Origin: Flavobacterium amniphilum
Lineage (GTDB): Bacteria > Bacteroidota > Bacteroidia > Flavobacteriales > Flavobacteriaceae
Assembly: GCF_023634845.1 (NCBI RefSeq)
Contig: NZ_JAMLJL010000003.1
Location: 1-64,000, forward strand
Direction of reading: 5' to 3'
Length of the DNA stretch: 64,000 nucleotides
The notes beneath the pieces were generated by a model that worked only from the letters and a program-made list of their open reading frames with translations, made no database searches and was not told the DNA's origin. The position numbers were made by a program, and so were the translations under genes. Shown here one piece after another: positions 13,030 through 45,602 of this stretch (the first letter of the stretch is position 1; each line of letters starts with the position of its first letter).

Positions 13030-13563
13030 ATGAAACTATTCAAATTACTGTCGTTAATCGGATTGTTCATTATCACTTCCTGCAGTTCAGTAAGGGTTAA
13101 TGCCGATTATGACAAAAACGCTAATTTTGGTCAGTATAAAACTTATGCCTTTCACAAAAGCGGAATAGACAAAGCGGAGATCTCTGATTTGGATAAAAGA
13201 AGAATTTTACGTGCTATCGACGCCCAAATGTCAGCCAAAGGTTTTACGAAAAGTGAAACTCCCGAATTATTGGTTAATATTTTTACCAAGGAAAGGGAAA
13301 AAGTAGATGTAAACAACTTCTCTGCCGGATGGGGATATGGCTGGGGTTACGGCTGGAATCCTTATTTATGGGGAGGAAGAACTTATGTATCTACTTCAAC
13401 TGAGGGAACATTATACATTGATTTAATTGATGCAAAGAACAAAGAATTGATCTGGCAGGGAATGGGAACCGGTTATCTGACTCACGATACCGAGAAAAAA
13501 GATCAAAGAGCCAACGAATTTGTAACCAAAATTCTTGAGCAATTTCCTCCACAATCGAAATAA
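13030..13563 (+). CDS. DUF4136-type lipoprotein
   Basis: 177 residues. A lipoprotein signal ends at IITSC (Cys18), so the mature protein should be lipid-anchored in the envelope. The following pattern, NADYDKNANFGQYKTYAF, is typical of DUF4136 lipoproteins. An aromatic Gly-rich patch (GWGYGWGYGWNPY) lies near 105-117, and the C-terminal part contains LYIDLIDAKNKELIWQG. The molecular role of the family is not established. It ends at a strong bidirectional terminator that it shares with the convergent graspetide operon. Confidence 0.85.
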   Translation: MKLFKLLSLIGLFIITSCSSVRVNADYDKNANFGQYKTYAFHKSGIDKAEISDLDKRRILRAIDAQMSAKGFTKSETPELLVNIFTKEREKVDVNNFSAGWGYGWGYGWNPYLWGGRTYVSTSTEGTLYIDLIDAKNKELIWQGMGTGYLTHDTEKKDQRANEFVTKILEQFPPQSK

Positions 13564-13590
13564 AAAAAGACTGCAGATGCAGTCTTTTTT
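13564..13590. terminator. Bidirectional terminator between the DUF4136 gene and the graspetide operon
   Basis: A perfect 12-bp stem, AAAAAGACTGCA / TGCAGTCTTTTT, with a 2-nt GA gap, starting directly after the DUF4136 stop codon. T tracts flank it on both strands, so it can stop both converging transcripts. Confidence 0.8.
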
Positions 13591-13601
13591 TATTCTTATA
13601 A

Positions 13602-14621
13602 TTAAACCATTTGGCTTGTTTCAAACTGCAATGGCACATAGCGTCTGTTTGCTTTCCCTAACAAAACTTTTGCGATTTGCGTGGATATTTCACCGTCAAT
13701 CAGCATATCCAGCCAGAAGAATTCCCCAGCCGAATTGATTTCCAGAAAATAATATTCGTCTTCCGGTGTTACAATAATATCAGCTGCGCCATAATTCATT
13801 CCGTAGACATCCATTAACTGAAGTAATTTTTCCTTTATTTCCAGAGGCAATTCATACGGAACCCAATCCTGTAAGAGCTTCACTCCTTCTCTTCTCCAGT
13901 CTAATTTTGCATTATCCAGTTTTTGTGAATCAATTGCAAAAGCATATACTTCTTCTCCAACAATTGTGATTCTCAATTCTAATTTCTTTTCTAATTTTTG
14001 CTGAAACTGCATTGGGCAATATTGCAATGTATCAATACTGTCCAAATCTTCTTCTTTAACTTCATTTGTAAAAACAACATTCTCAACACCGTCCTTATAA
14101 ATTGCAAAAGAACTCTGCATTTTTGTAATCACACTGTTATGGCTTCTTACAAAACGTCTTGCTTCTTCCGGGCTGTTTGTAATACAGGTTTCAGGAACTT
14201 TCAATCCTAAACCCGAAGCAATTTTCATCTGCTCTTCTTTACTATCCAATCTTCTGTACATACTGTACTTCCCTAATTGAAAACAGTTAAGACCTTCTAA
14301 CATACCATTAAGGGTTGTTCTGATTTCCCCATGGATACTACTTAAGAATTCCCCTTCCACCAAACCATTCAGGCCACTCCCTAAATTATGGCTTCTTCTG
14401 TACCATAATGACGCAACATCGTGTATAGTAGTCCGCTCCCCTTCATAATCCAGATACATTTTCCATTCACCGTTTTCATAACAAGTACTCAATCCATATT
14501 TTAAAGGATACTCGTCCACATTGAAACGGATAGGTATGCCATTATTTTCCCTAATTTTTTGTGAAACTACTTCAACACTGTTATTATCACCTGTGTGCGT
14601 AATTATTAATACTTTTTCCAT
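13602..14621 (-). CDS. mvdD: MvdD-type ATP-grasp peptide ligase (omega-ester forming, graspetide maturation)
   Basis: 339 residues. ATP-grasp ligase of the microviridin maturase family. The best-known MvdD enzymes form the two omega-ester bonds in the precursor core. Visible features: N-terminal LIITHTGDNNSVEVV; VASLWYRRS near 90; TKMQSSFAIY and VVFTNEVKEEDL (a segment typical of MvdD); YCPMQFQQ; LELRITIVG; LDWRREGV; and the C-terminal ATP-grasp metal and ATP block GAADIIVTPEDEYYFLEINSAGEFFW. It lies 35 nt downstream of the mvdC-like gene and is the last gene of the operon. Assignment to MvdD rather than MvdC rests on remembered family signatures; a domain search would settle it. Confidence 0.87.
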   Translation of the reverse strand: MEKVLIITHTGDNNSVEVVSQKIRENNGIPIRFNVDEYPLKYGLSTCYENGEWKMYLDYEGERTTIHDVASLWYRRSHNLGSGLNGLVEGEFLSSIHGEIRTTLNGMLEGLNCFQLGKYSMYRRLDSKEEQMKIASGLGLKVPETCITNSPEEARRFVRSHNSVITKMQSSFAIYKDGVENVVFTNEVKEEDLDSIDTLQYCPMQFQQKLEKKLELRITIVGEEVYAFAIDSQKLDNAKLDWRREGVKLLQDWVPYELPLEIKEKLLQLMDVYGMNYGAADIIVTPEDEYYFLEINSAGEFFWLDMLIDGEISTQIAKVLLGKANRRYVPLQFETSQMV

Positions 14622-14656
14622 AATTTATTTATTTGATAAACTAAATTCCAATTTTA

Positions 14657-15637
14657 TTAATTAATTCTGGCTACCAGCTTTTCAGCTATTGTTTCCCCAA
14701 TTGGGTAGCCTAAATCCCTTTGAATCATTCCCCATTCCCCTTGCGGGTTCACTTCCAGGAAAACATATTTGCCTTCACTGTCACGGATCATATCGATTAC
14801 ACCAAAAAGCAATCCCATATTTTCCATCATTGCGGTTAAAGACATACAAACCAGTTCAGGCAATGTATACTCTTCCCATGTTGACTGAAGATCATTTGCG
14901 ATTCTCCAATCTGTTTTACCTGTTACAGAAGCTGTTGCATTAATTTTTCCGGCAAAAAAAGTACCGTCTACGTAAGCGATACGCAGTTCATATGATTTTT
15001 CGATTTCCCTTTGGAATATCATTGGGCAATACGGTAAAGTATCCAAATTATCCAAATCTTCTTCCCGAATAACTGTTGTCGGAAACATTGGTGTATTCCC
15101 GGACATGCTTCTGGATAAAGCGCCGTGAAGTTTTACTATCATGCGCCCTTTACAGGTTGAATGGAAGAATTCTATAACCTGCGGCTGGGAATTTGTAAAT
15201 AAACTTTCCGGTATGATCAATCCGGCTTTACGGGCCTGATTCAGCTGCTCAAATTTGTTCTCTCCAACTTTATGGTCTGTATCCATGATATTCATCCATG
15301 GAACATGACTGATTGACTCAAAAAACAAATTCCGCATGGTAGTGTATTCCTGTTTATGAATAGGCTTAAAAGAATTATCCAAATCTTCAGGAACAGAAAC
15401 TCCCCATAATTTTCTATACCAAACAGCTTCAACATCCTGAGCTGTAAATTTCCTGTCATTATAATTAACCTCAACCAATGTCTCCTCTGAATTCACTTTG
15501 TATTCAAATGATAACAATTCAGAAAACTGATCTGAGTTGAGTCTTAAAACATCTTTTCCTAATTCCCTGAGTTTCTTTTCGACTATATCAATCGTATAAA
15601 AATCGTTAGAATGACTAATACATAAAACCATAAGCAT
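14657..15637 (-). CDS. mvdC: MvdC-type ATP-grasp peptide ligase (omega-amide forming, graspetide maturation)
   Basis: 326 residues. Second ATP-grasp maturase of the graspetide cluster. Characterised MvdC enzymes form the Lys-Glu amide that closes the third ring after MvdD has made the two esters. Visible features: LCISHSNDFYTIDIVEKKL at the N-terminus, VEAVWYRKLWG, MIVKLHGALSRSMSG, IREEDLDNLDTLPYCPMIFQ, ELRIAYVDG, TDWRIAN and YVFLEVNPQGEWGMIQRDL. The last block, with E-V-N-P-x-G-E-W-G-M, is typical of MvdC. The start is ATG at 15637 or 15631 (reading M-L-M). The start codon sits directly against the T tract of the terminator hairpin that separates it from the precursor gene. Confidence 0.87.
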   Translation of the reverse strand: MLMVLCISHSNDFYTIDIVEKKLRELGKDVLRLNSDQFSELLSFEYKVNSEETLVEVNYNDRKFTAQDVEAVWYRKLWGVSVPEDLDNSFKPIHKQEYTTMRNLFFESISHVPWMNIMDTDHKVGENKFEQLNQARKAGLIIPESLFTNSQPQVIEFFHSTCKGRMIVKLHGALSRSMSGNTPMFPTTVIREEDLDNLDTLPYCPMIFQREIEKSYELRIAYVDGTFFAGKINATASVTGKTDWRIANDLQSTWEEYTLPELVCMSLTAMMENMGLLFGVIDMIRDSEGKYVFLEVNPQGEWGMIQRDLGYPIGETIAEKLVARIN

Positions 15638-15675
15638 AAAAAAATAAGAGCAACGGCATAACCGTTACTCTTATT
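15638..15675 (-). terminator. Intra-operon terminator/attenuator between precursor and ligases
   Basis: On the minus strand an 8-bp outer stem (AATAAGAG / CTCTTATT) and a 5-bp inner stem (AACGG / CCGTT) with one mismatch are followed by seven T residues. It starts 13 nt past the precursor stop and its T tract ends at the mvdC start codon. It should let only a fraction of transcripts continue into the ligase genes. Confidence 0.78.
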
Positions 15676-15688
15676 CCACTATTTAATA

Positions 15689-15931
15689 TTAGATAGCAGT
15701 TCCATCCTCATCACTGTCAGATGGGTATTTCATTGTCTCATAAACATCAGCAGACGGTTTTGTAGTTCCCCCAGGTCCTTCTTCTCCGTCAGATGGATAT
15801 TTCATAGTTTGCACAGTATCTCTTAGTACTGAAGTGATAGCACCACCTTGAACTGCATTAGCTTCTTCTTTTGACATTTGGTTTTCTAAAAAGCTCGCGA
15901 AAAACGGCTTTTTCAATTCATTTTTTTTCAT
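15689..15931 (-). CDS. Graspetide (microviridin/marinostatin-type) precursor peptide with two cores
   Basis: 80 residues, ribosomal precursor of an omega-ester-containing peptide. The leader carries KPFFASFLENQ (8-18), which corresponds to the conserved PFFARFLE helix recognised by the ligases, and a Gly-Gly at 29-30. Core 1 is T42-M-K44-Y-P-S47-D48-G-E50-E51. Core 2 is T66-M-K68-Y-P-S71-D72-S-D74-E75-D76. The spacings T-D (6), S-acidic (3) and K-E (7) match the microviridin tricycle in both cores. Core 2 has Asp74 where core 1 and classical microviridins have Glu. The two ATP-grasp ligases follow immediately. The mature product is probably a serine-protease inhibitor by family analogy; this is not shown by the sequence. 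Confidence 0.92.
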   Translation of the reverse strand: MKKNELKKPFFASFLENQMSKEEANAVQGGAITSVLRDTVQTMKYPSDGEEGPGGTTKPSADVYETMKYPSDSDEDGTAI

Positions 15932-16338
15932 GAGATTAAAAATTTAATTTTAAAAAAATTTGTTTACTTAGTCTGTCTATTTGCAAATATTCGACAGAGC
16001 TAAATTACCCTTAATTCTACCCTCAAAAAATCCAAATCCGGCAAGGTGATTGATTTTCTACCTTAAATTTATAAAAATAGGTACCCTTTTTCGCACAAAA
16101 AAACACTCCTTATCCATTATAAATCAACCTCTTTTGACCTGAATTTACACCAAATAAAAAAAAGTAAAAAATTTCTGTTAAAAAAAACTAAAAATCAAGG
16201 CTAAATCCAGCCATTTTTCGTTATATTATTGATAATACCGAATGCTTTTACAGTTAAAAAACAATCTTCATCCTTCAATTTCCGGGACAGTTGAAATTTC
16301 ATTTTTACTAAAGATATCAATTTTTAAGACAACCCCAA

Positions 16339-16431
16339 TAGCCCTGATGGAAGCGGCATCCTTTTTTTGAATGCATGGAGTTTCGGAATGCCTTCAAAAA
16401 AAGATATAGCGGACAGCAGGAATAAGCTCCT
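16339..16431 (+). repeat. Structured intergenic repeat element (copy 2)
   Basis: It begins AGCCCTGATGGAAGCGGCATCC. An 11-bp inverted repeat CTTTTTTTGAA (16361-16371) / TTCAAAAAAAG (16393-16403) follows, then ATAGCGGACAGCAGG and AGCTCC. The core GAT-R-GAAGC, hairpin, GCGGA-Y-AGC is shared with the minus strand of copy 1 at 10764-10827. The variable hairpin between conserved flanks looks like a dispersed RNA or DNA structural element rather than part of the downstream gene. It ends 10 nt before the promoter box of the hydroxylase gene. Confidence 0.6.
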
Positions 16432-16440
16432 AAGATTTAT

Positions 16441-16448
16441 TAACTTTG
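16441..16448 (+). promoter_or_regulatory. Bacteroidota -7 promoter box (TAACTTTG)
   Basis: A perfect TAnnTTTG 25 bp upstream of the hydroxylase ATG, giving a 5' leader of roughly 15-20 nt. No clear TTG -33 element is present at 17-23 bp. Confidence 0.5.
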
Positions 16449-16472
16449 TAAACGAGCACAACTATTAAAACG

Positions 16473-18230
16473 ATGAATACAGAATACGAAAGCAACCCAT
16501 TGATAGACCGACTTCCGAAGCATTTGAAGCAATTTATCAAACCTCAGGATTACAATGATTACACACCTGTTAATCAAGCCGTGTGGCGCTATGTAATGCG
16601 CAAAAACGTAGATTATTTAGGAAAAGTGGCTCATGAATCCTATCTGGACGGATTGCGTCAAACAGGAATTGATATTGAAAACATTCCGAATATGTACGGG
16701 ATGAACCGGATTTTACAGGAAATAGGCTGGGCTGCAGTTGCAGTTGACGGTTTTATTCCGCCGAGTGCCTTTATGGAATTCCAGGCCTATAATGTATTGG
16801 TTATTGCCAGTGACATCCGTCAGTTAGAACATATTGAATATACACCGGCACCGGATATTATCCACGAAGGCGCCGGTCATGCTCCTATCATAGCCAATCC
16901 TGAGTATGCTGAATATTTACGTCGTTTTGGAGAAATCGGATGTAAGGCAATTTCATCTGCAAGGGATTATGAAATGTATGAAGCAGTACGATTGCTTTCT
17001 ATTTTAAAAGAAGCTGAAGATACGCCGGAAGAAGAAGTCAAAAAAGCAGAAGAGCAGGTAGATTTCCTTCAGAACAATATGGGAGAATTGTCCGAAATGT
17101 CCAAAATCAGGAATTTACACTGGTGGACAGTTGAATACGGATTAATTGGTACTGTTGAAAATCCGAAGATATATGGAGCCGGATTACTTTCATCAATTGG
17201 CGAAAGTGCTTGGTGCATGACCGATAATGTAAAGAAAATACCGTATGATATTGCTGCGGCTGATCAAAGCTTTGACATTACAAAACCGCAACCTCAGCTA
17301 TATGTTACACAAGATTTTGCACAACTGAATCAAATCCTTGAAGAATTTGCCAATACGATGGCTTTGAGAACGGGTGGTTTATCCGGAATCAAGAAAGTCA
17401 TCCAATCAAAAGCGTTAGGAACGATTGAATTGAGTACCGGTTTACAGATTTCAGGCGTATTCACCAATGTTATAGAACATGACAACAAACCTGTTTATGT
17501 TCAATGTACCGGAAAAACGGCTCTATCCTACCGTGAGAAAGAATTGGTTGGCCATGGAACCGAATATCATGCAGAAGGTTTTGGTTCGCCTATCGGAAAA
17601 CTGAAAGGTATAAACCTTGCAATAGAAGACATGAGTCCGCGTGATTTAAAAGCCTACGACATCTACGAAGGCAAACACATCACATTGGAATTTGAAGGAG
17701 ACATTACAGTTTCTGGAGAAATTATCACCGGAACCCGTAATATTCAGGGGAAAATTTTATTGATTAAGTTCAAAAATTGTACCGTAACACAAGGAGATAC
17801 TTTACTATTCAGTCCGGATTGGGGAATTTACGACATGGCCGTTGGTAAAGAAGTTATTTCCGCTTTTTCAGGTCCGGCCGATGTGAACAGTTTTGACATG
17901 ATCAATCACGTTCCGTCATCCAAAACGATTAAGCAAAAGAAAACAGAAGAAAGAGAAGAACTGGAAAATTTGTACCTGAACATCCGCAATATACGCGAAA
18001 ACAAAGAAGCCGAAATCACTTTAAAAGAAGCTTTCGGAGCTGTTTCAGGATGCCATCCGAACGATTGGCTGTTATCGGTAGAAATAGCTGAACTGGCATA
18101 CAAAAACCATAACAATGATTTAATGGACAAAGTGGTGAATCATTTGGAAAACGTAAAAAGAAGACGTCCGGAAATTACGCATTTAATTACAAACGGACTG
18201 GATTTGATTTTAGAGAAAGTTTCAACTTAA
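16473..18230 (+). CDS. Aromatic amino acid hydroxylase (phenylalanine 4-monooxygenase-like)
   Basis: Non-haem iron, pterin-dependent monooxygenase that would hydroxylate phenylalanine to tyrosine. 585 residues, about twice the usual bacterial length of 260-300. The catalytic part spans roughly 25-340. Iron ligands are visible as H131 and H136 in HEGAGH and E221 in WWTVEYGLIG. PDIIHEGAGHAPI matches the family signature. The C-terminal 240 residues after about 340 are an extra domain of unknown role, ending in a helical segment (VVNHLENVKRRRPEI). The long form is common in Bacteroidota as far as I know. A pterin-recycling dehydratase is not seen nearby. The first residues are MNTEYESN, placed well behind the promoter box. 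Confidence 0.88.
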   Translation: MNTEYESNPLIDRLPKHLKQFIKPQDYNDYTPVNQAVWRYVMRKNVDYLGKVAHESYLDGLRQTGIDIENIPNMYGMNRILQEIGWAAVAVDGFIPPSAFMEFQAYNVLVIASDIRQLEHIEYTPAPDIIHEGAGHAPIIANPEYAEYLRRFGEIGCKAISSARDYEMYEAVRLLSILKEAEDTPEEEVKKAEEQVDFLQNNMGELSEMSKIRNLHWWTVEYGLIGTVENPKIYGAGLLSSIGESAWCMTDNVKKIPYDIAAADQSFDITKPQPQLYVTQDFAQLNQILEEFANTMALRTGGLSGIKKVIQSKALGTIELSTGLQISGVFTNVIEHDNKPVYVQCTGKTALSYREKELVGHGTEYHAEGFGSPIGKLKGINLAIEDMSPRDLKAYDIYEGKHITLEFEGDITVSGEIITGTRNIQGKILLIKFKNCTVTQGDTLLFSPDWGIYDMAVGKEVISAFSGPADVNSFDMINHVPSSKTIKQKKTEEREELENLYLNIRNIRENKEAEITLKEAFGAVSGCHPNDWLLSVEIAELAYKNHNNDLMDKVVNHLENVKRRRPEITHLITNGLDLILEKVST

Positions 18231-20261: not shown

Positions 20262-21491
20262 TTAATCAACTTCCACTTCATTAATCAAACGTATTGGTTT
20301 ATTATAAACCAATCTTTGCAACATTACATCAATAAATGACGTATACTTTTTGTTTCCGCATTCATACCACCAGAATGATTTGTAGTGCAGATTGTTTTTC
20401 TCCATTTTGTTAAACCAGACTTTTGAATGATTAACTTCTACAATTTCAGATTCCGAGATTTTATACCCATCACCTGTCCAACAAATTAAAGGTTTGTGGG
20501 AAGGCGCTTTGATATACGTTAGTTTTTCCGGGGTTGAAATTTTAAAGACTTCGGGATTGACCCACTTCCCCTTTTTAATATCATACTTCGGATCGATTTG
20601 GTACAATAAATTGAAATTTTGATCATTTTTAATTTCCAGACTTGTGATAAAAATCAAAACAAATGCTCCCAAAACAGGATAAAAACCAAGTGAGTGACCC
20701 AATTCTTTTAATTGTTCTTGTTTGGGTTTGATATAACGGATCAAAAAAAGCATCGGCATAATTTGATACAAACCAAAACAGACTAAACCAACCATATGAT
20801 GCAATACATTTTCCTGTGTACAATCCAATAAAACCAAAGTGATAATTCTAAAGAAATTGGAAACAATGTTTAAGAGTATTACCAAAAGACAAAAAAGAAT
20901 GATTTGGATATTCTTATAGTAAAAGCCGCTCTTTTTTTCTTCAATTGTAAGAAGTACCGCAGCCGCTAATAATCCGGTTTTAAACATCGATAAGCCCATA
21001 CAAGCCGTATCAACGGTAATTTTAGCACCTTTGATGAAAAAATTGACACCTTCAGCCTTATCTATGTTTATGGTGTTTTTTAACGTAAGATACACACCCT
21101 GACACAACCACTGTTTGATTTCTGCGGATAAATGTTCAAAAAACTTATTAAACAGTGAAGAAAATAACAACAAACTGATAAACGCTATAAATGAAAATCT
21201 CCTGGTAATTGTATAATAAGTCAAACAAATGATCATACACAATGACAGAAAATGCAGTGATCTCGTATGCAATCTATAACTTATAAATTCAAGCAAAACC
21301 AGTAAAAAAAGAAGCGGATAATGGACTTTTAAATTTGTTGTCCTTCCTCCCACGAAAAACAAAACCATAGAAAGAATAACTCCGAAGAAATCGTTTTCAA
21401 GAGCAAAAAAAAACAACTCATAATTCATGACCAACAGTATTATTGGAATCATAATCATGAGTGTTTTTTTATTTTGTAGTACAAACTGCAT
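20262..21491 (-). CDS. xrtN: Exosortase N (XrtN-type membrane protease/transpeptidase)
   Basis: 409 residues, multi-spanning inner-membrane protein. Exosortases cut or transfer proteins that carry a C-terminal PEP-type sorting tail. The catalytic triad positions are visible: C164 in ITVDTACMGLSMF, R215 in SNFFRIITLVLLDC, and H231 or H232 in ENVLHHMVG. The first 120 residues are mostly membrane helices, and a soluble C-terminal domain follows at about 295-409. Its start codon overlaps the stop of the upstream VIT-domain gene by one base (TAATG), so translation is coupled to its presumed substrate. Assignment to the N subtype rests on this partner. Confidence 0.85.
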   Translation of the reverse strand: MQFVLQNKKTLMIMIPIILLVMNYELFFFALENDFFGVILSMVLFFVGGRTTNLKVHYPLLFLLVLLEFISYRLHTRSLHFLSLCMIICLTYYTITRRFSFIAFISLLLFSSLFNKFFEHLSAEIKQWLCQGVYLTLKNTINIDKAEGVNFFIKGAKITVDTACMGLSMFKTGLLAAAVLLTIEEKKSGFYYKNIQIILFCLLVILLNIVSNFFRIITLVLLDCTQENVLHHMVGLVCFGLYQIMPMLFLIRYIKPKQEQLKELGHSLGFYPVLGAFVLIFITSLEIKNDQNFNLLYQIDPKYDIKKGKWVNPEVFKISTPEKLTYIKAPSHKPLICWTGDGYKISESEIVEVNHSKVWFNKMEKNNLHYKSFWWYECGNKKYTSFIDVMLQRLVYNKPIRLINEVEVD

Positions 21492-23977
21492 TAATAAGCG
21501 GATTTATTCATTTGCCTTTTATAATAAAACAAAAGAGTCAATACCAATATAATAATCATAGCCCATTCATGCGGCTCCGGAACAGCTCCGTCATTATTAA
21601 CCGACGCATTACCAAGTGTATTTACATTTTTTTCAATTCCGTTATTTTCATAATCTTCATCTGTTTCAAGTACGATTAACGATGAAACCGGCGAAACAAC
21701 ATTCGCTTCTTTAGCCAGATCAACAAATTTATTAGTTGATAAAGTATCTTCCTGTATTTTGATTTGTTCGTCTAAAATCCTTGCAAAGGCGTACATTCTG
21801 AAAATATGATTGGAACCGTTGTTTTTTGAATTGGTATTGGCAGGACTTTCTTCAATAGCAACATCTGCCACTTCGAGATTTACACGGTTTTCATTTCTCC
21901 TAATGATTATAAAATGGTTTTTAGCAATTAACTCTACACATTCTTTGAGATTTGTTTGCAGAAAATCTACATACTTCTGTTCTTTTACTGTCTGCCAAAA
22001 CGGATTGATATCAGAAGAAATCGCTATTACTTTTATATTTTTTGATTTAGCATTTTCTTTAACTTTTTTAAGGTAAGGAGATGCTTCCAATTCTTCAAAA
22101 TTAGCTGAAATTGAACCGCTTTTTGTCACTACCAGAGCATTCTCTTTCAATTTGTAAAAAGGGATTAACGAGTACTGTAACGATTTAAACTGATCAAAAA
22201 AAGATTCATAATTCTCCTTATTGATTTCCAGTTTTTCATTATTAATAAATACATAATACGTTGAATTTGAATTTTCTAAAATGGCTTCTAATTCTTCTTC
22301 TTCCCAACTCGCATTCAGGTCTAAAACCACTTCACTCGGTTTGAATGAAATTTTTTCTTTATCTGTTTTCTTTATCTCGTATGCCTTATTTTCCCAAACA
22401 AAAGAACTTCCAAAAGCATTATTATTCAAAGGCATGACAGCCTCCCACTTATCCAAACCTTCTGACTCATTGATATAAAAGCCGTTTTTCAATTCAAATT
22501 CTTTACTCGATTCAAACTTTCCATTTCCAACCATTTGTATTCTGGATAATGTTTCAGCATTTGAAATATTAGGCCCTTTAATATTTAAGCTGGAATAAAC
22601 CATTTCATTTCCACTTACCTTCAACGGTGTGGTAAAACCACATTTAAAAGTTCTGGGTAAAGCTTCATTGATAGGAAAAACACGAACTACAACCCTATTA
22701 CCTTCTTTCCATTGCATTAATGAGGGATCTCGGGATTCCACCCCTACAATTTGGTTATAAGCAGCTTTAGCCTTCTCCTTTGTTGTCAAAACACCTTTAC
22801 GTTCCACCCCGTTAACCCATAAAGAAAGTGACGTTGCCACAGAACCTTCCGGTAATTGAAAAGAATAAATAGCTTCCTTGTCAACGCGCCCAGAACCTTC
22901 ATCACAGGCCACATCCATTGTAATTTCGGTGTATGCTAATCTTTCATTGGAATATATCTTAACATCTTCCTTGATATTTTTAGTTACCAAATCCATACCA
23001 CTCCATAATTGTTCTTCAGTCTCCAATCGCTTATCAAAATTTGACTTCAGAATATTGATACGGTCATCAGCAGTCAACGAAAGATTATGCATAAACATAT
23101 AAGCAATATTTACAATTGGATTGTGCGTCTTTCTTTCATTATATTGTTTAGTTCCCAAACCATCCAGGCCCCTGAATTCAAAAAAGTCTTCACTGTGAAT
23201 ATAAACAATCCCTTTCTTGAGAAGTATTTCATTGCAGAAATTAGGTTCCAAATTTTGGGATACTCTTATATAACCCGGCAAATCACTGTTTGTATCAAAA
23301 GTTTTTGTAATCAGAAAACTGTTTATTTTTTGATTCTCTCCATGCAGTACAATGACAAACACGACAATACCGGCTATTCCTAATGTAATCCCTGAAAAAA
23401 ACTGAAGTAGGTTTTTCTTTTCAATCGAGGCATTGTAAAACAGCTTCATTATATGCCAAAAAGATACAATTGCCGGTACCAATCCGTAAAAACCCAATCC
23501 AACAGCCAAAATACCCACAAAAGAAATCGGCATTATTGGGATTAAATAAAACATAAAATAAATAATCATCAAAAATGAAATCCCATTCGAAAAATAAGCA
23601 AGAGGTGTTATAATTTTATGCTTGTAGTTATTGTAGATAAAAAAGTTAGACAAACAAAAGATAAAAGTCACAACATAAACCCAAACAGGCAGATTTTCAA
23701 AAACACATATCAGAATATTTGTTGAAAAACAACCTACAAACCAGTTTAAGAACAGAAATGGTATTATATGATCGTACTCATTCTTATTGTTTAGTATTTT
23801 TAAGATAAAAATACCCCCGTAAAGTATTTCAATGAGCAAACCCAAAAGACAAACAGACTCCAAGCCTCTGACATCAAATTCTATTCCCACCAAAGCAGTT
23901 ATCAAAAAACAAACACTCAGTATAGTAACCACTATACTTGCATAAACCCCTTTTTTATTGAAAAAATTTTCTTTCAT
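21491..23977 (-). CDS. VIT-domain membrane protein with C-terminal PEP-type tail (XrtN substrate)
   Basis: 828 residues from an ATG at 23977 (MKENFFNKKG). A frame extension to 24085 lies upstream of the promoter and is rejected. The N-terminal 240 residues contain many membrane helices. A VIT-like domain follows near 390-520 (AYTEITMDVACDEGSG, YSFQLPEGSVATSLSLWVNG, AKAAYNQIVGVESRDPSLMQW). The C-terminus reads VPEPHEWAMIIILVLTLLFYYKR, a PEP motif, hydrophobic helix and basic tail, the classical exosortase sorting signal. The following xrtN overlaps its stop, which fits a dedicated one-substrate exosortase pair. The biological role of the pair is unknown. Confidence 0.85.
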   Translation of the reverse strand: MKENFFNKKGVYASIVVTILSVCFLITALVGIEFDVRGLESVCLLGLLIEILYGGIFILKILNNKNEYDHIIPFLFLNWFVGCFSTNILICVFENLPVWVYVVTFIFCLSNFFIYNNYKHKIITPLAYFSNGISFLMIIYFMFYLIPIMPISFVGILAVGLGFYGLVPAIVSFWHIMKLFYNASIEKKNLLQFFSGITLGIAGIVVFVIVLHGENQKINSFLITKTFDTNSDLPGYIRVSQNLEPNFCNEILLKKGIVYIHSEDFFEFRGLDGLGTKQYNERKTHNPIVNIAYMFMHNLSLTADDRINILKSNFDKRLETEEQLWSGMDLVTKNIKEDVKIYSNERLAYTEITMDVACDEGSGRVDKEAIYSFQLPEGSVATSLSLWVNGVERKGVLTTKEKAKAAYNQIVGVESRDPSLMQWKEGNRVVVRVFPINEALPRTFKCGFTTPLKVSGNEMVYSSLNIKGPNISNAETLSRIQMVGNGKFESSKEFELKNGFYINESEGLDKWEAVMPLNNNAFGSSFVWENKAYEIKKTDKEKISFKPSEVVLDLNASWEEEELEAILENSNSTYYVFINNEKLEINKENYESFFDQFKSLQYSLIPFYKLKENALVVTKSGSISANFEELEASPYLKKVKENAKSKNIKVIAISSDINPFWQTVKEQKYVDFLQTNLKECVELIAKNHFIIIRRNENRVNLEVADVAIEESPANTNSKNNGSNHIFRMYAFARILDEQIKIQEDTLSTNKFVDLAKEANVVSPVSSLIVLETDEDYENNGIEKNVNTLGNASVNNDGAVPEPHEWAMIIILVLTLLFYYKRQMNKSAY

Positions 23978-24006
23978 GATTAAAATTTTAAAAGTACTTT
24001 GAATTA

Positions 24007-24036
24007 CAAAGTTACTGTAAATTTTAAACCGGCAAA
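24007..24036 (-). promoter_or_regulatory. Promoter of the VIT-xrtN operon
   Basis: On the minus strand, TTTG (24036-24033), an 18-bp spacer and TAACTTTG (24014-24007) match the Bacteroidota -33/-7 promoter. Transcription would start near 24000, just upstream of the ATG at 23977. Confidence 0.65.
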
Positions 24037-24152
24037 TAATTTTTCGATAAACTTTCAAAAAAATCACAATAAGCATCATACTCATTATTTCTGTTTATTC
24101 CGATATAAATTTATTCCGATAATTTTAACGATTTCTTCACTCTTTATTTCCT

Positions 24153-24160
24153 TAATTTTG
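24153..24160 (+). promoter_or_regulatory. -7 promoter box (TAATTTTG) of the ABC exporter gene
   Basis: A perfect TAnnTTTG 37 bp upstream of the ATG at 24197. It supports that start over the upstream extension beginning at 23999. No clear -33 element is seen. Confidence 0.45.
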
Positions 24161-24196
24161 TTCGTCCGCCAAACAACCGGACCATTCAAAAACACT

Positions 24197-25957
24197 ATGA
24201 AGCTACTATACTGTTATCTCAAAAAACATAAAACCCTATTATTTTTTGCCTTGTTGATGGCCGCCATTAATATTTGTTTCAGTTTAAGTGATTCCATTAT
24301 TACCGGTAAACTGATGCAGGATTGCGGTGTTGGTATTGCCAAATATAAAGGACGGGAATTGGATTTTATTAAGGCCGTTGGCTTTTGGCTTGGGCTTTCC
24401 CTTGGTGCAGCCATGATTTCCAGAATCACTAAAAATTTCCAGGATTATTTTACCAATATTGTCATTCAGCGTACCGGTGCTGAAATGTATACAGACGGAA
24501 TTAAAAAATCATTGGATTTGCCCTATGAAGATTTTGAAGATCAACGAAGCGGAGAAACTTTGAGCAAACTGCAAAAAGTCCGCACCGACTCAGAAAAACT
24601 AATTACACTTTCCATTTCATTGATTTTCCAGACCATAATCGGTTTCATATTCGTATTGGTTTATATATCAAGGATTGATTACAGAGTTGCCGTCATATTT
24701 ATTTTAACTGCTCCGATCATTGCTTATGTAAGCTCATTTTTGGGCAAAAAAATCAAGGCTGTTTCCAGAAGAATTGTACAGCAAACCAATTCACTTGCCG
24801 GATCGACAACCGAAAGTTTACGCAACATCGAATTAGTAAAAAGCTTGGGACTTATCCATCAGGAAGAAGAACGCTTGAATTCAAATACACACAAAATTTT
24901 ACATCTAGAACTACAGAAAGTCCGCTTTATCAGAAGTTTAAGTTTTATTCAGGGAACTACAGTTCATTTCATGCGTACCTGCGTAGTTTTCACGTTGTAT
25001 TATTTTTTATTCGGAGGAAAAATTGTTGTGGGAGACCTTTTAACAATGGTGTTTTTCACCTTCTTCATTTTTAATCCGTTACAGGAATTAAGCGCCTACA
25101 TCATTGCTAAAAATGAAACAAAAGTTTCAATGGAAAATTTCGAGAAGCTTTTAAAAGCAAATTCAGAACACCGTCCTGAAAATCCAGCGACAATCGGAAC
25201 CATAAAATCGATGACATTCTCCAATGTGAGTTTTAAACATAAATCGGCGAGCCAACCCGCAGTAGAAAATATTAATTTTGACATAAAACAAGGTGAAACC
25301 ATTGCATTCGTAGGACCTTCAGGAGCCGGAAAGACAACTTTGGTAAAATTACTGGTAGGATTGTATCCACCGGCGCAAGGACAAGTTTTATATAATGGTA
25401 TAGATTCAAAAGCAATTGATATTTTAGAGCTACGTAAACAATTAGGATTCGTAACTCAGGACGCTCAGTTGTTTTCCGGAACGATAAAAGAGAATTTATT
25501 ATTTGTTAAACCCGATGCCACCGATCAGGAATTGCTGGACGCCTTACATAAGGCAAGTTGTGAAAAATTGCTAAACAGAGCCGAAAACGGTCTAAACACA
25601 ACTATAGGAGAAGGTGGAATAAAAGTATCCGGAGGGGAAAAACAACGCTTATCAATTGCCCGTGCCATATTGCGCCATCCTAATTTATTGATCTTTGATG
25701 AAGCAACATCAGCATTGGATTCTATAACAGAAGAAGAAATCAACAGTACAATTAGAAGTATTTCTGACCAAAACAGAATTACCATCCTTATTGCCCACCG
25801 TTTATCAACGATCATGCACGCTGACAAGATTTTCGTACTGGAACAAGGCAAAATCATCGAGCAGGGTAAACATTCGGATTTACTGGACGAAAAAGGATTG
25901 TATTATGCCATGTGGAGACAACAAATAGGAGAACGGAAAAGTACCGCCGTTGCATAA
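24197..25957 (+). CDS. ABC exporter, fused membrane and ATP-binding domains
   Basis: 586 residues from ATG at 24197 (MKLLYCYLKK). Half-size exporter with a six-helix membrane domain in the first 320 residues and an ATPase domain after about 345. Walker A is GPSGAGKTT, the Q loop is in GFVTQDAQLFSG, the signature is SGGEKQR, Walker B is LLIFDEATSALD, and the switch His is in IAHRLS. No N-terminal C39 peptidase domain is present, so it is not a leader-cleaving bacteriocin exporter. The layout fits the MsbA-like or multidrug group; the substrate cannot be told from sequence. It is divergent from the VIT-xrtN operon and ends at a strong terminator. Confidence 0.9.
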   Translation: MKLLYCYLKKHKTLLFFALLMAAINICFSLSDSIITGKLMQDCGVGIAKYKGRELDFIKAVGFWLGLSLGAAMISRITKNFQDYFTNIVIQRTGAEMYTDGIKKSLDLPYEDFEDQRSGETLSKLQKVRTDSEKLITLSISLIFQTIIGFIFVLVYISRIDYRVAVIFILTAPIIAYVSSFLGKKIKAVSRRIVQQTNSLAGSTTESLRNIELVKSLGLIHQEEERLNSNTHKILHLELQKVRFIRSLSFIQGTTVHFMRTCVVFTLYYFLFGGKIVVGDLLTMVFFTFFIFNPLQELSAYIIAKNETKVSMENFEKLLKANSEHRPENPATIGTIKSMTFSNVSFKHKSASQPAVENINFDIKQGETIAFVGPSGAGKTTLVKLLVGLYPPAQGQVLYNGIDSKAIDILELRKQLGFVTQDAQLFSGTIKENLLFVKPDATDQELLDALHKASCEKLLNRAENGLNTTIGEGGIKVSGGEKQRLSIARAILRHPNLLIFDEATSALDSITEEEINSTIRSISDQNRITILIAHRLSTIMHADKIFVLEQGKIIEQGKHSDLLDEKGLYYAMWRQQIGERKSTAVA

Positions 25958-43694: not shown

Positions 43695-45602
43695 CTACAA
43701 GTTATCAATTTCCATCTGAACTGTTTCCCAATCTTCCAATAATTTTTCCAATTCCTGCTTTTTCTTTTCATAAGCAGCAAAAAAACTGGCATTCTCTATA
43801 TGTTTATCATAATTGGAAGCCAACTCTTTATCGTCCTGCTGAATATCTTTTTCCAACTGCTGGATCTGACTTTCAATTTTAGACAATCGGTTCTGCAATG
43901 ATTTTTGTGCTTTTTGATCTTCGTAAGAAAGATTTTTAATCTGTTTTGGTACTTCTTTAACCACAACATCTTTCTTTTCAACCTCACGCATATTTTCCAG
44001 ATTCCGCTGTTCTAAGAAATAATTGATATCTCCTAAATACTCTTTGATCTTTTGGTCTTTAAATTCATAAACAAGATTGGACATGTCCTGAAGAAAATCC
44101 CTGTCATGGGAAACCAGCAAAAGTGTTCCTTCATATTTTTGAAGTGCGGCTTTCAGTACGTTCTTTGATTTTATATCCAAGTGATTCGTTGGCTCATCCA
44201 TCACCAAAACATTGATCGGCTGCAATAATAATTTACAAAGCGCCAAACGATTTCTTTCACCTCCGGAAAGAACTTTCACTTTTTTCTCTACGTCATCTCC
44301 CCTAAACAGGAAAGAACCTAACATATCGCGTACTTTCGAACGGTTGGTATCTGTTGCGGCATCTTCCATAGTTTGCAGCAAGGTAATCTCACCGTCTAAA
44401 TATTCCGCTTGGTTTTGGGCAAAATAACCCACTTGTACATTATGCCCCAATTTGATCGAACCTTCATATTCAAACTCATTGACTATCGCTTTTATAAGTG
44501 TTGATTTTCCTTGACCGTTCTGACCTACAAAAGCAATTTTACTGCCTCGCTCCACTAAAAGTGAAATATCTTTCAAAATGGTCTTGTCTCCGTATGCTTT
44601 AGTCACATGCTCTGCCTCAATCACTACTTTCCCTGGTACTTTTGACACCGGAAACGAAATATTCATCACCGAATTATCATCTTCATCTACTTCAATACGT
44701 TCCACTTTGTCCAGTTTTTTAATCAATGACTGGGCCATGGAAGCTTTAGAAGCTTTGGCACGGAATTTCTCAATTAACTTTTCCGTTTCTTCAATTTTCT
44801 TAGCCTGGTTCTTTTGTGTGGCCAATTGCTTTTCACGGATTTCATGACGCAATTCTAAATATTGTGAATACGGCTTATTAAAATCGTATGCTTTTCCTAA
44901 CGAAATCTCAATGGTTCTGTTCGTTACATTATCTAAAAACATCTTATCGTGGGAAACAATAACCACAACTCCGGGATAATTACGAAGGAAACTCTCCAGC
45001 CAAATGATACTTTCAATATCCAAGTGATTGGTTGGCTCATCCAAAAGCAGTATATCGTTCGACTGAAGCAATAATTTCGCTAATTCGATACGCATACGCC
45101 ACCCTCCGGAAAAAGTCTCTGTCTGGTTGTTAAAAACATCTCTTTTAAAACCTAATCCCAATAAAATTTTCTCTGTATCTCCTACATAATTATACCCGCC
45201 TAACAATTCAAAACGGTGGGTATAATCAGATAAATCTTCTATAATCTGTGAATACTCTTCGCTTTCATAATCGGTTCGGGTAACCAATTGATGGTTAATT
45301 TCAGCGAGTTTTTTCTCTACTTCTTTAATATCTGTAAATGCCTGATAGGCTTCTTCAAGCACGGTTCTTCCTTGCTCAAAATCGATATCCTGACGCAAGA
45401 AACCTATTCTCACTTCTTTCTCTGTTGCTATACTTCCTGAATCGGGCGCAAAATCCCTAGCTAAAATCTTCAGCATCGTCGATTTTCCGGCACCGTTTTT
45501 CCCTACAAGTCCTACTCTATCGCCGGCCCCCATTCTAAAAGTGACTTCTTCAAATAAATAAGTGCCTCCAAAAGAGACCGACAAATTGTGTATATTAAGC
45601 AT
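43695..45602 (-). CDS. ABC-F family ATPase (ribosome-associated, Uup/EttA type)
   Basis: 635 residues with two ATPase domains and no membrane segment. Walker A motifs GKNGAGKST and GQNGQGKST; signatures FSGGWRMR and LSGGERNR; Walker B LLLDEPTNHLD and LVMDEPTNHLD. The linker between domains is long and basic, and the C-terminus from about 545 is a coiled coil (NRLSKIESQIQQLEKDIQQ). That tail is typical of Uup-like members, which act on ribosomes or branched DNA. The exact subfamily is not certain. A promoter box lies 26 bp upstream, divergent from DUF983. Confidence 0.92.
   Translation of the reverse strand: MLNIHNLSVSFGGTYLFEEVTFRMGAGDRVGLVGKNGAGKSTMLKILARDFAPDSGSIATEKEVRIGFLRQDIDFEQGRTVLEEAYQAFTDIKEVEKKLAEINHQLVTRTDYESEEYSQIIEDLSDYTHRFELLGGYNYVGDTEKILLGLGFKRDVFNNQTETFSGGWRMRIELAKLLLQSNDILLLDEPTNHLDIESIIWLESFLRNYPGVVVIVSHDKMFLDNVTNRTIEISLGKAYDFNKPYSQYLELRHEIREKQLATQKNQAKKIEETEKLIEKFRAKASKASMAQSLIKKLDKVERIEVDEDDNSVMNISFPVSKVPGKVVIEAEHVTKAYGDKTILKDISLLVERGSKIAFVGQNGQGKSTLIKAIVNEFEYEGSIKLGHNVQVGYFAQNQAEYLDGEITLLQTMEDAATDTNRSKVRDMLGSFLFRGDDVEKKVKVLSGGERNRLALCKLLLQPINVLVMDEPTNHLDIKSKNVLKAALQKYEGTLLLVSHDRDFLQDMSNLVYEFKDQKIKEYLGDINYFLEQRNLENMREVEKKDVVVKEVPKQIKNLSYEDQKAQKSLQNRLSKIESQIQQLEKDIQQDDKELASNYDKHIENASFFAAYEKKKQELEKLLEDWETVQMEIDNL

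Follow-up and report, generated by a model that had tools for sequence, protein, structure and literature searches.

A probable graspetide operon in Flavobacterium amniphilum with two predicted chryseoviridin-type modules in one precursor

Background

The closest described relatives of the locus considered here are the chryseoviridin system (cdnA-B-C) of Chryseobacterium gregarium and its relatives, and the cyanobacterial microviridins (mdn/mvd). Both are graspetides, the characterised members of which are protease inhibitors. We have analysed a stretch of 64,000 nucleotides of Flavobacterium amniphilum DNA (contig NZ_JAMLJL010000003.1, positions 1 to 64,000; hereafter the window, with a G+C content of 36%), which contains a three-gene cluster of the known microviridin/chryseoviridin kind, encoding a precursor peptide with two modules and two ATP-grasp ligases.

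The cluster has in common with the chryseoviridin system the leader motif PFFASFL, a double glycine (GG), the motif TxxxxDxxxTxKxPSDx[DE][DE] and the order of the ligase genes, and the chryseoviridin ligase CdnC is the nearest solved structure to the ester ligase of the window. The two differ in that a chryseoviridin precursor carries one C-terminal cage core after one to several T-x4-D units, whereas the module of unit plus cage occurs twice here; in that chryseoviridin loci often have several precursor genes and the window has one; and in their flanks, which are an alpha/beta hydrolase and an epimerase in chryseoviridin loci (PMC8939145) but DUF4136 and phenylalanine hydroxylase genes here. 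Cyanobacterial microviridins likewise have a TxKYPSDxEE core, two ligases and a leader motif of this type (PFFARFL), but the Nostoc precursor lacks the T-x4-D units of which the window precursor has two; of the acetyltransferase of microviridins there was no trace among the 18 window proteins put to Pfam (those up to about 29 kb, plus 43698-45602). Class I microviridin precursors have a single core, mostly without GG, whereas two cores and a GG are found here. Multicore class II microviridins (e.g., AMdnA of Anabaena) carry several cage cores after one leader and GG, as in the window, and among solved structures AMdnB from that system comes closest to the window's amide ligase; class II clusters often include a linked C39 exporter, which is present in the Nostoc locus (L107) but not here.

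The same precursor build and gene order recur closer to home. Other Flavobacterium (F. humi, F. supellecticarium, F. terrae, F. jejuense, F. endophyticum, F. microcysteis and others) have a precursor with two or three cores, the same gene order and a hairpin in the same place, although the loci examined lie at other chromosomal sites, three of them adjoining a peptidyl-prolyl-isomerase-like gene; the arrangement is also seen in Sinomicrobium and Taibaiella. An earlier note on this DNA had placed the novelty of the cluster in its precursor and context. This was overstated: at least nine further Flavobacterium loci and these two genera share the two-core build and order, and multicore microviridins and chryseoviridins are already published. 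Our literature searches listed no paper whose title concerns Flavobacterium graspetides.

The cluster and its ligases

The cluster lies on the minus strand, as do all of its parts described below unless stated otherwise, and its coordinates and frames were checked. A precursor gene of cdnA/mdnA type (15689..15931), encoding 80 amino acids that comprise a leader, GG and two modules, is followed after 51 bp by an MvdC/MdnB/CdnB-like ATP-grasp ligase of 326 amino acids and predicted lactam-forming activity (14657..15637), and after a further 35 bp by an MvdD/MdnC/CdnC-like ATP-grasp ligase of 339 amino acids, the predicted ester former (13602..14621). All three reading frames are intact. The precursor scores 78 bits against NCBIfam NF033738 (cut-off 26) and 50.9 bits against Pfam Inhibitor_I10 (cut-off 21); because of these family scores, and the E-values of the ligases against solved structures given below, we consider the cluster to be far beyond chance, and a chance or mis-called small open reading frame is ruled out by the family scores together with conservation in relatives. 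The whole assembly (4.3 Mb, 56 contigs) has one NF033738 match and one such ligase pair, and both are here. Very probably these genes form a compact and complete graspetide operon of the microviridin/chryseoviridin group. The earlier note had described a minimal gene set in a flavobacterium, consisting of an 80-residue precursor with PFFASFL and two TMKYPSD cores beside two ATP-grasp genes; we found each element as described, and no linked protease, exporter or acetyltransferase adjoining the cluster.

The top NCBIfam model for the first ligase is MvdC (TIGR04185, 370.2 bits against a cut-off of 425), and among Protein Data Bank (PDB) chains it matches AMdnB (7m4s, E = 2.2e-69). For the second ligase the corresponding matches are MvdD (TIGR04184, 414.9 bits against a cut-off of 475) and CdnC (7mgv, E = 2.4e-124). 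CdnC itself, in its aligned part with the last residues missing, attains 470.8 bits on TIGR04184, also under 475, and so the shortfall on this model is not evidence against function. On TIGR04185, where the cut-off is 425, two other MvdC-like ligases of Bacteroidota reach 410.7 and 386.8; of the proteins used for this calibration only the Nostoc pair passes. The shortfalls of the window ligases therefore weigh little, although they keep both outside these strict models.

A tree of 79 rows, drawn from 168 gathered ligases (83 sources, the window and PDB) and anchored by the solved MdnB, AMdnB, MdnC and CdnC, places 39 MvdC-like and 39 MvdD-like rows each on one side of a branch, with values of 95 and 94-95 from the Shimodaira-Hasegawa-like approximate likelihood ratio test (SH-aLRT), the sole support measure of this quick method, in a topology where two long stems and the outgroup make for long branches. 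The window ligases fall one in each clade, neighboured by those of F. humi and other Flavobacterium, with CdnC among the Chryseobacterium ester ligases; the precursor is therefore encoded with one ligase of the MvdC clade and one of the MvdD clade. The earlier note had named this placement as the test that could overturn its MvdC/MvdD assignment, and the assignment survives it. Ligases of other kinds (grasp-with-spasm, TgmB) are ruled out by scores and tree alike. Among the named loci with both ligases as separate genes, the MvdC-like gene precedes the MvdD-like gene in 77 of 77. As a separate observation, a single open frame spans both ligases in Chryseobacterium sp. ERMR1:04 (L096, 7974-9953, plus strand), which is either a fusion of the two genes that occurs in nature or an error of sequencing; the same locus has the most precursor genes (five).

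Two modules and the number of rings

The leader contains PFFASFL at residues 9-15 (15887..15907), which is read directly and has PFFAxFL-type counterparts in the precursors of relatives, and is followed by the GG at residues 29-30 (15842..15847), the predicted leader cut, kept in most relatives' precursors but not all (GS in L027). Two modules follow, TSVLRD-TVQ-TMKYPSDGEE and TKPSAD-VYE-TMKYPSDSDE, and the PFFAxFL leader and TxKYPSDx[DE][DE] core that characterise the microviridin/chryseoviridin group are thus both present. Module 1 consists of the T-x4-D unit T33-D38 (15818..15835) and the cage core T42-E51 (15779..15808); module 2 consists of the unit T57-D62 (15746..15763) and the cage core T66-E75 (15707..15736). 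The two units are an addition to the earlier note. Its reading of core 1, that the spacing of T42-D48, S47-E50 and K44-E51 equals the microviridin pattern, is borne out by direct inspection, and in core 2 D74 takes the position of E50.

According to Makarova et al. (2022; PMC8939145), chryseoviridin precursors share a conserved motif that is cross-linked, TxxxxDxxxTxKxPSDxD[DE], and fragments of 6-10 residues able to form one lactone have been gained and lost. Module 2 matches every letter of this motif, and module 1 does so with E for D at the ninth core position. Each TMKYPSD core of the window is preceded by T-x4-D at the spacing of the chryseoviridin motif, and for this reason we predict eight rings in the product, not six. 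Four rings would form in each module: an ester in the T-x4-D unit and, in the cage, whose residues and spacing fit the predicted links, two further esters and an amide. The leader would dock on both ligases. Of these, the CdnC-like one (13602-14621) would form the esters T33-D38, T57-D62, T42-D48, S47-E50, T66-D72 and S71-D74, while the MdnB-like ligase (14657-15637) would close the Lys-Glu amides K44-E51 and K68-E75. The earlier note had predicted a tricyclic product and a loss of 54 Da per core (108 Da in all). Its cage spacing stands, but two cages are an incomplete account when a T-x4-D unit precedes each core, and a chryseoviridin-type module, T-x4-D-x3-[TxKYPSDxxE], predicts up to eight water losses (-144 Da instead of -108 Da) from residues 31-80, taking the computed monoisotopic mass of the neutral peptide from 5309.44 Da unmodified to 5165.36 Da, against 5201.38 Da for six rings. 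The correction matters in practice, since it decides whether a mass-spectrometry search detects the product.

Conservation of the unit was assessed across 192 cores in 165 precursors from 82 sources, namely the window, one other genome of the genus and 80 named loci; the latter are the best 80 of 133 confirmed loci, and the percentages hold for those 80. T-x4-D precedes the core with a spacer of three residues in 101 of the 192 cores and a spacer of two in a further 53, no core being in both sets, and the precursor of L039 entered this count with a wrong upstream start. Other spacers are scarce (13 cores at spacer 4, 0-3 at spacers 5-8). When D is fixed at -4, 101 cores have T five residues earlier, and any other distance accounts for 0-32; T at distance 7 in 32 cores and at distance 2 in 21 reflects its general frequency in these peptides. 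These counts show a constraint on T-x4-D, though not as an independent test, the cores being related by descent. Among 13 Flavobacterium precursors (from 11 sources, one of which, G194, was assigned to the genus by kinship), the unit stands before the last core in all 13, with varied residues inside it, and before the first core in seven.

It is on this evidence that the simpler model of the earlier note, in which two plain microviridin tricycles account for all six rings (-108 Da) and the T-x4-D segments are unlinked spacers, has to be judged. The core spacing is exactly that of microviridins, cyanobacterial multicore precursors such as that of Nostoc do without the unit, and so do the first cores of the remaining six Flavobacterium precursors. 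Against this are set the fixed distance between T and D in the surveyed cores, the universal presence of the unit before the last Flavobacterium core while its intervening residues vary, the naming of the motif as cross-linked in chryseoviridin, and the position of CdnC as closest to the ester ligase, since the title of the CdnC paper calls this enzyme a dual ligase and names both single and bicyclic esters. We regard the model as improbable.

A second alternative also arrives at six rings, through three esters in each module (T-x4-D, T-D and S-E/D) and no amides, with the MvdC-like ligase idle or acting at few sites. The title of the CdnC paper mentions esters only, and Makarova et al. (PMC8939145) speak of three lactone or lactam linkages in the motif. 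Yet the MvdC-like gene is intact here, and in 77 of the 80 named loci it stands as a separate gene next to its MvdD-like partner, while in nearly all cores Lys is kept at position 3 and position 10 is acidic (E 113, D 73, A 5, S 1; n = 192). The ninth position, for its part, is D in 167 of the 192. That amides are lacking altogether seems to us unlikely, although less so than that the units are spacers.

Several points nevertheless weigh against eight rings in a single product. The three linkages that Makarova et al. (PMC8939145) count for TxxxxDxxxTxKxPSDxD[DE] in Chryseobacterium are one fewer per module than our prediction, and one link, for instance the amide, may be absent. The T-x4-D ring is carried over by analogy with chryseoviridin, and the shared descent of the cores and the six Flavobacterium precursors without a first unit bear on it too. 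Neither ligase reaches the strict NCBIfam cut-off, no linked protease or exporter was found, and the linker contains another GG (residues 54-55). Chemistry, expression and activity of the cluster, and release of a two-headed product, are all predictions from sequence.

Leader removal, release and target

A GG site points to cleavage by a C39 peptidase, and we propose that a C39 peptidase/exporter encoded elsewhere in the genome would cut after GG29-30. A search of the whole window, with six C39-type proteins from this genome as queries, recovered no C39 gene. The genome has seven C39 peptidase matches over the cut-off, the nearest about 311 kb away on the same contig. An ABC exporter in the window (23999-25957), 8 kb from the cluster, is without a C39 domain and is not a linked C39 exporter; a second ABC-type match is an ABC-F-like ATPase and was rejected as an exporter candidate. 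Class II/III microviridins combine GG with, often, a linked C39 exporter, and the cluster has the first of these features without the second. Such linkage is rare among relatives, with a strong match in five of the 80 named loci (L072, L082, L091, L094 and L095) in a survey where some loci end at contig ends and matches are judged by score; Pfam confirmed the C39 domain in both of the two loci scanned among these five.

Cleavage at GG29-30 would yield one product of 50 residues (31-80) carrying up to eight rings. Alternatively, a protease acting in the linker could free each module separately, giving two small peptides instead of one two-headed product, and the linker GG at residues 54-55 offers a place for this. 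That GG is not conserved, however; relatives mostly have GPGN, GPGV or GPGQ there. C39 sites are expected in a hydrophobic leader context, which the linker GG appears to lack. Separate release is accordingly doubtful in our view.

If the modules do remain together, the product is most likely a two-headed serine-protease inhibitor, by analogy with characterised graspetides. Target choice in microviridins is set by core position 2, occupied here by Met43 and Met67; across the 192 cores this position is most often M (102 cores), followed by L (53) and Q (22), a distribution that would fit elastase-, chymotrypsin- or subtilisin-like targets. Two modules of unit plus cage in one peptide would, if true, constitute a natural two-headed serine-protease inhibitor.

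A hairpin between precursor and ligase genes

The gap between the precursor and first ligase genes contains a terminator-like hairpin of 17 pairs followed by a T run (15641..15677), a predicted attenuator that adds to what the earlier note had read. A counterpart occupies the precursor/ligase gap in 79 of 81 loci; of 810 dinucleotide shuffles of the same length, 4.4% contain one. The exceptions are L043, which has a hairpin but no T run, and L059, where the gap is 3 nt. Position is kept while sequence changes, there being 69 distinct sequences among the 79; the stem is mostly GGAAACTTA...TAAGTTTCC in Chryseobacterium, and it often resembles AGCAATAGC in Flavobacterium, Sinomicrobium and Chitinophaga. 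Hairpins occur in only two of 83 gaps between tandem precursor genes, a control that is partly an effect of length (these gaps have a median of 39 nt, 29 of the 83 measuring at least 45 nt, whereas the median of the last gap is 80.5 nt), and in none of 11 ligase-ligase gaps of at least 20 nt. The 9-pair hairpin in the 383-nt gap of the Nostoc locus may be due to chance.

Other ribosomal peptide operons are known to terminate part of their transcripts downstream of the structural gene. The hairpin is most likely a leaky terminator that would let only some transcripts reach the ligase genes, leaving precursor in excess of enzyme, and it is possible that it represents an attenuator common to Bacteroidota graspetide operons; if so, it would offer an answer to the question of how substrate comes to be made in such large excess over enzyme. 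No Rfam family matches above its gathering score at the hairpin. Our literature searches found no paper on such a hairpin in graspetide operons, and the words 'terminator', 'attenuat' and 'intergenic' are absent from the text of PMC8939145. The wider proposal, of two-headed inhibitors built from two full chryseoviridin modules with eight rings, combined with a dedicated Bacteroidota RNA attenuator that fixes the ratio of precursor to enzyme, is put forward tentatively, and we think it somewhat likelier to fall than to stand.

At the other end of the cluster a hairpin between A and T runs (13559..13594), which folds on both the plus and minus strands, is a predicted two-way terminator shared with the convergent DUF4136 gene.

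Genomic site and distribution

The cluster is flanked by the DUF4136 gene, itself preceded by a urocanase gene, and by the phenylalanine hydroxylase gene. In 11 relatives among 40 genomes searched, these two flanking genes are neighbours on a single contig, no more than 10 kb apart; elsewhere they are on different contigs or distant (e.g., G022). Ten of the 11 were compared, and in all ten the cluster is absent and other genes stand in its place, named by eye as threonine-dehydratase-like, truncated-haemoglobin-like or other. The slot (13030-18230, and in L109-L118) is thus a variable chromosomal site, whose cargo differs from one group of relatives to the next. A Flavo-1 RNA (RF01705), scoring 75.1 bits against a gathering score of 42, lies at 16336-16427 on the plus strand, with the cluster on one side and the phenylalanine hydroxylase gene on the other.

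The precursor occurs in five of 199 genomes of the genus and two of 299 in a sample of the family, the window's own genome being counted in each. The simplest reading of this pattern would be patchy gain by horizontal transfer. A location of the cluster on a phage or plasmid was considered and rejected, since protein matches to phage (2 records) and plasmid (81) sequences are all below 60% identity, the best among the matches listed being 37.4%. The same patchiness within the genus, and the missing link to an exporter, might be taken to mean that the cluster is silent or decaying. Against this, its three frames are intact, the ligases are 66% and 76% identical to their nearest relatives with motifs retained, and its own hairpins and operon spacing are preserved, all of which leaves decay or silence very improbable.

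In Taibaiella, a genus of the Chitinophagaceae, two loci (L029 and L031) have four consecutive precursor genes, each encoding two or three cores. Their ligases fall inside the Flavobacteriaceae group of the tree, a placement that suggests transfer between families.

Elsewhere in the window, an exosortase-like membrane protein of the EpsH family adjoins an 864-amino-acid VIT-domain protein (20262-24085, minus strand), a pair that we take to resemble the XrtN pairs of Bacteroidota.

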